Below are positions 3,538-26,708 of a stretch of DNA of 49,682 nucleotides, piece after piece. Both the position numbers and the translations under genes were made by a program. The stretch comes from a bacterium (lineage in GTDB: Bacteria; Patescibacteriota; Patescibacteriia; UBA9934; GWF2-40-263), in NCBI GenBank assembly GCA_021789915.1, contig JAJYIV010000006.1, positions 1 to 49,682 of the forward strand. The letters are read 5' to 3'. The notes below the pieces were generated by a model. It searched no databases. It saw only the letters and a program-made list of their open reading frames with translations, and was not told the origin of the DNA. Position 1 is the stretch's first letter; the number at the start of each line of letters is the position of its first letter.

Positions 3538-3607
3538 TTGTCATCCTGAGCGCAGCGAAGGATCCGTCGACAGATCCTTCGGTCGCTGCGCTCCCTCAGG
3601 ATGACAA
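3538..3607. repeat. Palindromic repeat, 'GTCATCCTGAG' family (intergenic copy)
   Basis: About 70 nt forming a long imperfect hairpin: TTGTCATCCTGAGCGCAGCG on the left, the complementary CTCAGGATGACAA at the right end, with GGATC/GATCC near the centre. It fills the hrcA-grpE gap. Related palindromes occur in grpE, tgt, around the GIY-YIG gene and at 26604-26708. Confidence 0.85.
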
Positions 3608-3620
3608 AGAACAAGAACCT

Positions 3621-4208
3621 ATGCCTGACGACGAACAGCAGCCGTCCGCCGAAGAACCCGTCATCGACGACCTGGAGCAGAAATGCGACGAGGCCGTCGC
3701 GGGCTGGAAGCGCGCGCTGGCCGATTACGACAACTTGAAGAAAGACTTGTCGAAAGAGCGCGCGGAGATGATCAAGCACGCCGCGTGGCGCGCGGCGCAG
3801 GCCTTCCTGCCGGTGCTCGACAACTTCGACGCGGCGCTCAAGTTTCAGCCGGAGGCTGATCCGCCTCTGGCGGACACGCCTGCATGGCAAAAGCTCCAGG
3901 GTTGGCTGCAAGGCATCCTCTTCATCCGCGCGCAACTCGAAAAGGCGCTGGAAGACCTCGGCCTTGAGCCCTTCGGCGCCGTCGGCGACGCGTTCGATCC
4001 GAACATGCACGAAGCGGTCGATTCTCGCGCCGAGTCCGCCGCCCCCTCCCGTGTCATCCCGAGCGACAGCGAGGGATCACGTGATTCCTCGCCTTCGGCT
4101 CGGAATGACACAGGGTCGGAGCACATCGCGGAAATCGTCCGCCGCGGCTGGAAACTGGGCGAGCAGGTCGTGCGCCCCGCGCAGGTCGTCGTCGGCTCAT
4201 CCGTTTGA
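3621..4208 (+). CDS. grpE: Nucleotide exchange factor GrpE with in-frame palindromic repeat insertion
   Basis: GrpE exchanges ADP on DnaK. Residues ~15-60 form the expected coiled coil (EQKCDEAVAGWKRALADYDN, KKDLSKERAEMIKHAAWRA), followed by LPVLDNFDAAL, and the beta-wing motif is visible (FDPNMHEAVD ... IVRRGWKLGEQVVRPAQVVV). Between these two wing segments, at about residues 144-163, a foreign peptide (VIPSDSEGSRDSSPSARND) is encoded by a complete copy of the genome's palindromic repeat. It falls in a surface loop of the C-terminal beta domain and keeps the frame, so the protein is probably still functional. The total of 195 residues is normal for the family. Confidence 0.93.
   Translation: MPDDEQQPSAEEPVIDDLEQKCDEAVAGWKRALADYDNLKKDLSKERAEMIKHAAWRAAQAFLPVLDNFDAALKFQPEADPPLADTPAWQKLQGWLQGILFIRAQLEKALEDLGLEPFGAVGDAFDPNMHEAVDSRAESAAPSRVIPSDSEGSRDSSPSARNDTGSEHIAEIVRRGWKLGEQVVRPAQVVVGSSV
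4051..4111. repeat. Palindromic repeat inside grpE, read in frame
   Basis: GTGTCATCCCGAGCGACAGC at the left and CTCGGAATGACAC at the right pair as inverted repeats around GGGATCAC/GTGATTCC. The ~60 nt unit is open in the grpE frame and adds about 20 residues, like the coding palindromic elements described in Rickettsia. Confidence 0.88.
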
Positions 4209-5520: not shown

Positions 5521-7922
<2,402 letters not shown>

Positions 7923-8306: not shown

Positions 8307-8609
8307 ATGTCTGCCGAAGAGTGGCTTGTTGTACCCCCTTCTCCTCTTTCCGAGCCAATCGGTCAACATCAAACTTCCTCAGCCACAACCTCTAGTTTTG
8401 TCTGGAATACGATTGTAGTTGTGGCTGCCGTTGTTGCAATAATTCATGCATTTGCAGATGAAACCATTCGGATCCTACATGAGGTTAGCGATCGCCCAGT
8501 TAGGGTCGATTTCTCAATCGAGCAAGGAGACTTAAGAGCGAAAAGCTCAATTCAGACATTCCCCAAGGACAGTCCGGTGGACGCGGAGTTCAAGGAGAAG
8601 AAGGACTAA
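8307..8609 (+). CDS. Small membrane protein whose C-terminus is a displaced dnaK tail
   Basis: A 100-residue product with one transmembrane helix (FVWNTIVVVAAVVAIIHAFA, ~residues 33-52). The last 11 residues ([11 protein letters not shown]) are the same as the DnaK C-terminus apart from the final residue. The preceding part is AT-rich, while the tail uses GC-rich host codons. The simplest reading is that an inserted gene lost its own 3' end and reads in frame into the original dnaK terminus left behind by the insertion. ATG at 8307 is chosen because it lies directly after the upstream stop. Confidence 0.6.
   Translation: MSAEEWLVVPPSPLSEPIGQHQTSSATTSSFVWNTIVVVAAVVAIIHAFADETIRILHEVSDRPVRVDFSIEQGDLRAKSSIQTFPKDSPVDAEFKEKKD
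8574..8609 (+). repeat. Direct repeat, distal copy (displaced dnaK 3' end)
   Basis: Second copy of the last 36 nt of dnaK, 687 nt downstream (229 codons, so it stays in the dnaK frame). It uses ttc/aag/gac where the proximal copy has ttt/aaa/gaa, so this copy looks like the native, GC-rich one. Confidence 0.85.
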
Positions 8610-8619
8610 TTCTCACCCT

Positions 8620-8650
8620 GTGTCATCCTGAGGCCGTTAGGCCGAGGGAT
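8620..8650. repeat. Left arm of a palindromic repeat split by a GIY-YIG gene
   Basis: GTGTCATCCTGAGG followed by GAGGGATCTCT. Its complement (AGAGATCCCTC ... CTCAGGATGACACA) stands at 8951-8995 on the other side of the GIY-YIG gene. Confidence 0.82.
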
Positions 8651-8945
8651 CTCTCCCCCAACGTAGGTCTGGAAAGAGATCTCGCCGCATCGGATTTGTC
8701 GTGTCGATCAACGCTTCCTTTCGATCACGGCGCCATCGCTTCAGCTGTTTTTCACGGGTAAGTGCTCCGTAGACATAGTCCGTCATCTCGTAGTAAAGCA
8801 GCTTTCGGACGTTGTATCGCTTCGTGAATCCATCAATTTTTCCCGCGCGATGCTCCTCTGTTCGACGAAGTAGGTTGTTCGTCACGCCAATGTACAGAAC
8901 CGAACCCGTTGGATTCGAAAGGATATAGACGAAGTATGAGCGCAT
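8637..8945 (-). CDS. GIY-YIG nuclease-family protein nested in a palindromic repeat
   Basis: A 102-residue single-domain protein: VYILSN near the start, then LYIGVTNNLLRRTEEH (the GIY-YIG signature with the conserved Tyr/Gly and Arg), ending in LYYEM and a basic helix (REKQLKRWRRDRKEAL). It belongs to the small UhuB/UPF0213-like group of stand-alone GIY-YIG proteins with likely DNA endonuclease activity. Its last residues (GRDPSA) and stop codon are coded by the left repeat arm. It is transcribed against the surrounding chaperone genes and has lower GC, consistent with a selfish or repeat-associated gene. Confidence 0.9.
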   Translation of the reverse strand: MRSYFVYILSNPTGSVLYIGVTNNLLRRTEEHRAGKIDGFTKRYNVRKLLYYEMTDYVYGALTREKQLKRWRRDRKEALIDTTNPMRRDLFPDLRWGRDPSA

Positions 8946-8950
8946 AATAC

Positions 8951-8995
8951 GAGAGATCCCTCGCCCCGACGGACGTCGGGGCTCAGGATGACACA
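8951..8995. repeat. Right arm of the split palindromic repeat
   Basis: AGAGATCCCTCGCC ... CTCAGGATGACACA, containing a smaller hairpin (CCCCGAC/GTCGGGG). It pairs with 8620-8650 so that the GIY-YIG gene occupies the apex of one palindrome. Confidence 0.82.
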
Positions 8996-9073
8996 GGTAA
9001 AGTTAAGCCCGCGTTCGCTGTCCCAATATCTGTTTGGACGGGATGACACGGAGTGAATGAGCAAAACAGAAAA

Positions 9074-19644: not shown

Positions 19645-21110
<1,466 letters not shown>

Positions 21111-26569: not shown

Positions 26570-26603
26570 GACGCCTCTGCAAAACCCTTCTTGTGTCATC
26601 CAG

Positions 26604-26708
26604 AGCTTCTTGCGTCATTCCGACCCCGCCTGCATGCAGGCGGGGCGAGGGATCACGAGCATGCGCGTAATCCTCCCCCCGACGGACCTCGGGGTCGGAA
26701 TGACGCAG
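26604..26708. repeat. Palindromic repeat, 'GTCATTCCGACCCC' variant
   Basis: TGCGTCATTCCGACCCC at the left and GGGGTCGGAATGACGCA at the right are perfect inverted copies; GCCTGCATGCAGGC and CGAGGGATCACG lie inside. A GAGAC...CTGCAAAACCC end-like motif precedes it at about 26570-26587, resembling the left end of the MITE-like element. The whole gap 26570-26757 is repeat sequence. Confidence 0.8.

Follow-up and report, generated by a model that had tools for sequence, protein, structure and literature searches.

What is the relationship between a small nuclease gene and the two inverted copies of a hairpin repeat between which it lies? We addressed this question at a locus of a Patescibacteria genome (1.06 Mb in 41 contigs), within an analysed stretch of 49,682 nucleotides, hereafter the window. 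The gene (8637-8945, minus strand) is an intact open reading frame of 102 amino acids matching PF01541 with 60 bits. Its product belongs to the GIY-YIG nuclease superfamily, as shown by the presence of the domain and of the catalytic Y, Y-x-G, R, H, E and N. Comparison with 78 relatives revealed that Y18, G20, R28, H32 and N84 are invariant and that Y7 and E65 are kept in at least 90% of them, a conservation that fits an intact GIY-YIG active site. The folds closest to the AF2 model of the protein (pLDDT 90.7) were UPF0213 BH0048, Slx1 and the UvrC N-domain. A search of the PDB by sequence returned weak GIY-YIG matches and nothing stronger.

The initial annotation had placed the gene at the apex of one split palindrome. 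Inverted arms do flank the gene: positions 8617-8635 and 8979-8997 are 95% complementary, and positions 8634-8655 and 8951-8972 are 86% complementary. It was also correct that the stop codon (8637-8639) and the final codons, encoding GRDPSA, are written in the left arm, that is, in the downstream hairpin unit. The arms are not the halves of a single hairpin, however. The downstream unit (8621-8653, plus strand) reads TGTC, ATCCT, GA, GGCC-GTTA-GGCC, GA, GGGAT and CTC. The upstream unit, 5' of the gene (8953-8993, minus strand), consists of a TGTC tag, ATCCT, a tandem GA, an inner stem formed by GCCCCGACG/CGTCGGGGC, GA, GGGAT and a CTC tail; folded as DNA, it reached -11.9 kcal/mol (z -3.2). 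Complementarity between the arms is limited to their outer (TGTCATCCTGAG) and innermost (GAGGGATCTCTC) parts and their inner stems are unlike, indicating that each arm is a stand-alone hairpin. A single long palindrome split by the gene was thus ruled out: there are two complete hairpins, each with its own inner stem. Together, arm, gene and arm make up a proposed composite mobile unit (8617-8997) with tags pointing outward and CCTG/CAGG at its flanks.

The repeat is abundant in the host genome, where it was counted, as in the other genomes, by pattern searches. With at most one mismatch, TGTCATCCTGAG occurs 9 times in the window for 0.09 expected, and the exact 12-mer is present in 32 copies genome-wide (reversed control, 0). 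Among 41 units from this genome, 33 fit a common scheme with a YGTC tag, an outer stem ATCCY/RGGAT, a 5'GA/3'GA tandem mismatch, and a variable inner stem and loop. The outer stem and the tandem G.A are kept while both sides of the inner stem vary, and the inner loop and stem, of variable size, are often GC-GNA-GC. DNA hairpins of very high stability are known to result from tandem sheared G.A pairs and from GCGNAGC or GCGAAAGC loops. Since standard folding parameters predicted little stability for the shortest unit (z 0.03), high stability of the repeat hairpins is what we infer.

Gene-free copies in the host genome are mainly dimers, in which two units in inverted orientation have their tags pointing outward, as in the gene-filled element. 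In the window, such dimers lie at 3539-3606 and 20402-20459, and a CCCGAG variant at 4052-4110. A single complete unit (7845-7872, minus strand) falls in frame within the stretch of dnaK that encodes the C-terminal tail. Further degenerate or rearranged copies were seen at 26594-26650 and 9041-9052. Separately, the final 42 nt of dnaK (7881-7922) recur with 88% identity at 8568-8609, beyond two inserted ORFs (DUF6941 and an unknown ORF); the second inserted ORF therefore has a DnaK-like tail.

Bracketing by repeat arms was then considered beyond this locus. The host genome carries five GIY-YIG genes. The two members of the window subfamily (L001 and L002) are bracketed; UvrC and the two other genes are not. 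Since the second gene of the subfamily is also bracketed, the idea of a chance insertion fails within this subfamily. Strong relatives of the window gene were drawn from many phyla; in 95 of 128 (74%) the inverted arms beat all shuffles, versus 5/29 (17%) for another GIY-YIG subfamily and 6/131 (5%) for random segments taken from these loci. The motif pair YGTCAY upstream and RTGACR downstream was found around 85/128 window-type genes, 0/29 genes of the other subfamily and 2/131 random segments. About a quarter of the window-type genes have no detectable bracket. Thus, the composite arm-gene-arm layout suggested by the initial annotation is a regular one, and orthologous sites free of the element are known. 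Its genome-wide regularity holds for the window subfamily but not for GIY-YIG genes of other subfamilies. Universal bracketing of GIY-YIG genes is ruled out by UvrC and the L003-type subfamily, and the unbracketed genes of other subfamilies serve, as expected, as a control.

Gene and repeat are partners across the phylum. In 287 genomes, mostly one per genus and not phylogenetically independent, at least 10 repeats were found in 50/87 gene-positive versus 5/199 gene-negative genomes (Fisher p 3e-26; MAG data, one repeat pattern counted per genome). The median was 13 repeats with the gene and 1 without, whereas a reversed control pattern was equally frequent in both groups. The co-occurrence held for the 60 closest relatives as well. 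In some gene-positive genomes the copy number of the counted pattern is low, for which other repeat types may be the reason. A RAYT or another Y1 transposase was ruled out as partner of the repeats: Y1 (RAYT-type) transposase genes are frequent in the phylum genomes, and no link to repeat number was detected there (p 0.64).

A signal of specificity was found at a single position of the protein. The arms fall into two classes, with either tandem-G.A stems or plain Watson-Crick stems of 8-9 bp with GAAA or CTTGA-type loops. The mutual information between residue 75 and arm class was 0.80, the highest of 500 permutation maxima being 0.64. Residue 75 is K or R in 25/25 loci with G.A arms, and W or Y in 29/31 loci with Watson-Crick arms. 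In the window protein it is R75 (codon 8721-8723, minus strand), at the start of helix 73-83 in the AF2 model. This match was assayed again in 60 loci new to the analysis. Both arms could be classified in 30, and all 30 fit, with 11 K/R residues in G.A loci, 19 W residues in Watson-Crick loci and no discordant case. The two arms of a gene always belonged to the same class in these loci. Genome G442 contains both hairpin classes, and each gene there has matching arms (L223; L311 and L323). On the best tree built without the residue-75 helix, both traits change 11 times; this tree is poorly resolved, and only 2-3 independent pairs lie on its well-supported branches. Overall, arm similarity is correlated with protein identity weakly though significantly (r 0.17), and the single-residue signal is far stronger. 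These matches strongly support a partnership of enzyme and repeat, and would allow the hairpin class read by the enzyme to be predicted from one residue, 75. Because this residue predicts the kind of hairpin that surrounds the gene, the enzyme is probably the partner of the repeats.

The whole unit is polymorphic at orthologous sites. At the xseA-xseB junction of genus g4, genome G021 reads TTGGTGTAGTG, then at the boundary TGTCATTGCGAG, the gene and CTCGCAATGACA, and past the second boundary CATTATGAAA. Its congener G003 is element-free and reads CTTGTATGACC. The difference between them is therefore the entire arm-gene-arm unit, with no obvious target-site duplication, such as would mark an insertion sequence or MITE of a DDE transposase, at this one clean site. 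A split transketolase site carries the element in G023 but not in G005. At a third site, G032 has no element, G035 a bare dimer, and G005 the gene along with dimers. The arm-gene-arm unit is thus likely to be mobile.

In the Taylorbacteria genome G096, 132 near-identical units were counted, and about 1 kb from an intact GIY-YIG gene lies a decayed second copy (L289, G096:C22) that has arms of its own. The bare dimers of this genome (L283-L302) are often located within larger inverted repeats, GGACTTACGC.../...GCGTAAGTCC and GTAACCGCTCACA.../...TGTGAGCGGTTAC, an arrangement that suggests insertion into the middle of other palindromic elements.

The gap between dnaN and recF in Bradyrhizobium displayed several states: near-empty, occupied by CGTC REPs, by the GIY element or by an internal deletion of it, or by a quite different nuclease element. 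In the sampled strains the GIY element was intact in 14 cases and broken in 3, and in L153 an internal deletion had reduced it to a gene-free dimer. The different element, seen in about 25 strains (L146-L215; for example L212, L148 and L151), carries a second, unrelated putative nuclease gene, DUF559-like by eye, between inverted copies of a different repeat (CCCTCTCCCCTTGTGGGAGAGGG ... CCCCTCACCCG); L188 is remnant-like. This gene and its own repeat are possibly another nuclease-repeat pair. The GIY gene of Bradyrhizobium is constant in position and under strong purifying selection (dN/dS 0.07).

Altogether, we consider it quite likely that the locus is a composite element, in which a GIY-YIG gene lies between inverted copies of a hairpin repeat that its product recognises, and of which the gene-free units are non-autonomous relatives. 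Since the Bradyrhizobium gene is fixed in place under purifying selection, a host-useful function fits too: the repeats would be marks at which the nuclease cuts incoming or replicating single-stranded DNA, in control of transformation or recombination, and would spread by other means. Such a role is reported for Ssn, a nuclease of Neisseria meningitidis, with its repeat. This explanation does not account well for orthologous sites with or without an entire arm-gene-arm unit, and a selfish element is suggested by the broken copies and by the presence of several paralogues in one genome, each of which has a distinct arm variant. We judge it unlikely as the main explanation, although the two ideas are not exclusive.

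A homing-like gene appears more doubtful still. Here, the double-stranded palindrome would be cut at its centre and the gene copied into the break, the arms being the halves of the interrupted target. GIY-YIG domains are known from homing nucleases, of which they are classical examples (PMC1564403), and gene-free dimers and filled element share their orientation in the host genome, so that the latter looks like a dimer interrupted in the middle by a gene. But the arms of one gene are often unlike in stem sequence while sharing a hairpin class, so that each arm counts as a unit. Moreover, empty congener sites lack arms altogether, and L153 of Bradyrhizobium illustrates the opposite route, from gene-bearing element to dimer. 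A homing-like route in two steps would still be compatible with these observations. Finally, simple hitch-hiking of a gene found by chance in intergenic places where hairpins collect is hardly credible: different palindromes do accumulate at the same intergenic sites, but the unbracketed state of other GIY genes and of random segments of the same loci mainly refutes it, and it leaves the residue-75 match and the gene-repeat co-occurrence unexplained.

For the composite element we infer hairpin-specific single-strand cleavage, a cut position and a transfer step, as follows. A unit made single-stranded on the lagging strand, during DNA uptake or in repair would fold into a hairpin with its YGTC tag. 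The nuclease would read this hairpin, residue 75 separating the two stem types (K/R for tandem G.A, W for Watson-Crick), and would nick the strand nearby. The freed end, or a copy of the filled unit arising from repair, could then be joined or copied elsewhere, by which units and arm-gene-arm elements would multiply. The enzyme is probably the long-missing reader of these hairpin repeats, and perhaps it also spreads them.

The initial annotation had compared the locus with RAYT proteins and REP sequences. The comparison is apt for the partnership of enzyme and repeat, as indicated by bracketing, co-occurrence, the residue-75 match and element-free sites. As in REPtrons with GTAG REPs, a gene lies between inverted hairpin repeats that are also scattered singly and as dimers. 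However, RAYT is a HUH/Y1 transposase and the window enzyme, a GIY-YIG nuclease, is no RAYT; Y1 genes are unlinked to the repeats. Slx1, UPF0213 and the UvrC N-domain, the nearest solved folds, differ in that they are nucleases of housekeeping or of structure-specific repair, and that no repeats bracket their genes.

A closer parallel may be Ssn (about 2025, Neisseria meningitidis and homologues), which is reportedly a site-specific single-strand GIY-YIG nuclease with a many-copy repeat, acting in the control of transformation. Both cases associate a small single-domain GIY-YIG enzyme with a genome-wide repeat, and a many-copy cognate repeat is present here. The window enzyme is probably of the Ssn kind, the defining cleavage of single-stranded DNA being a prediction here. 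Neither the two-sided arms nor the two classes of hairpin and their link to residue 75 are known from the Ssn work. Full-text literature searches, whose reach did not extend to the Ssn work, returned no paper describing an association between GIY-YIG genes and REP-type repeats.

The nearest known repeats are the CGTC-tagged REPs, which include dRS3 of Neisseria and RPE-4/RPE-6 of Rickettsia. According to Di Nocera et al. 2013 (PMC3733652), they are without a dedicated transposase, and this survey left the cause of their spread open. The window repeat shares with them a YGTC tag, a stem beginning with AT (tag and stem start in 33/41 own-genome units) and occurrence as dimers. The arms in Bradyrhizobium, L107, L118 and many other relatives share the 8-9 bp stem, the 4-5 nt loop and the CCA-type tail and fall under the definition of Di Nocera et al.; the arm class with plain Watson-Crick stems corresponds to these REPs. 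In contrast, the window repeat lacks the 8-9 bp Watson-Crick stem, the 4-5 nt loop and the CCA tail, and has a 5-bp outer stem, the tandem G.A, a variable inner stem and a CTC/CTG tail. Judged by these features, it is a sister class of the CGTC REPs. A broader proposal, for and against which we find the balance even, is that this GIY-YIG subfamily supplies the dedicated mobiliser so far missing for the CGTC-type REP super-family, and also for the sister tandem-G.A class, across Bacteria, a GIY-YIG nuclease replacing the HUH transposase and residue 75 largely setting the hairpin class. For the spread of these REPs, among them dRS3 and certain palindromes of Rickettsia, this would provide a candidate enzyme in many phyla along with a statistical link. 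With such a candidate and a hairpin class predicted from one residue, the question becomes testable with a few oligonucleotides and point mutants. If the proposal is true, these enzymes would be compact nucleases with a predictable hairpin preference.
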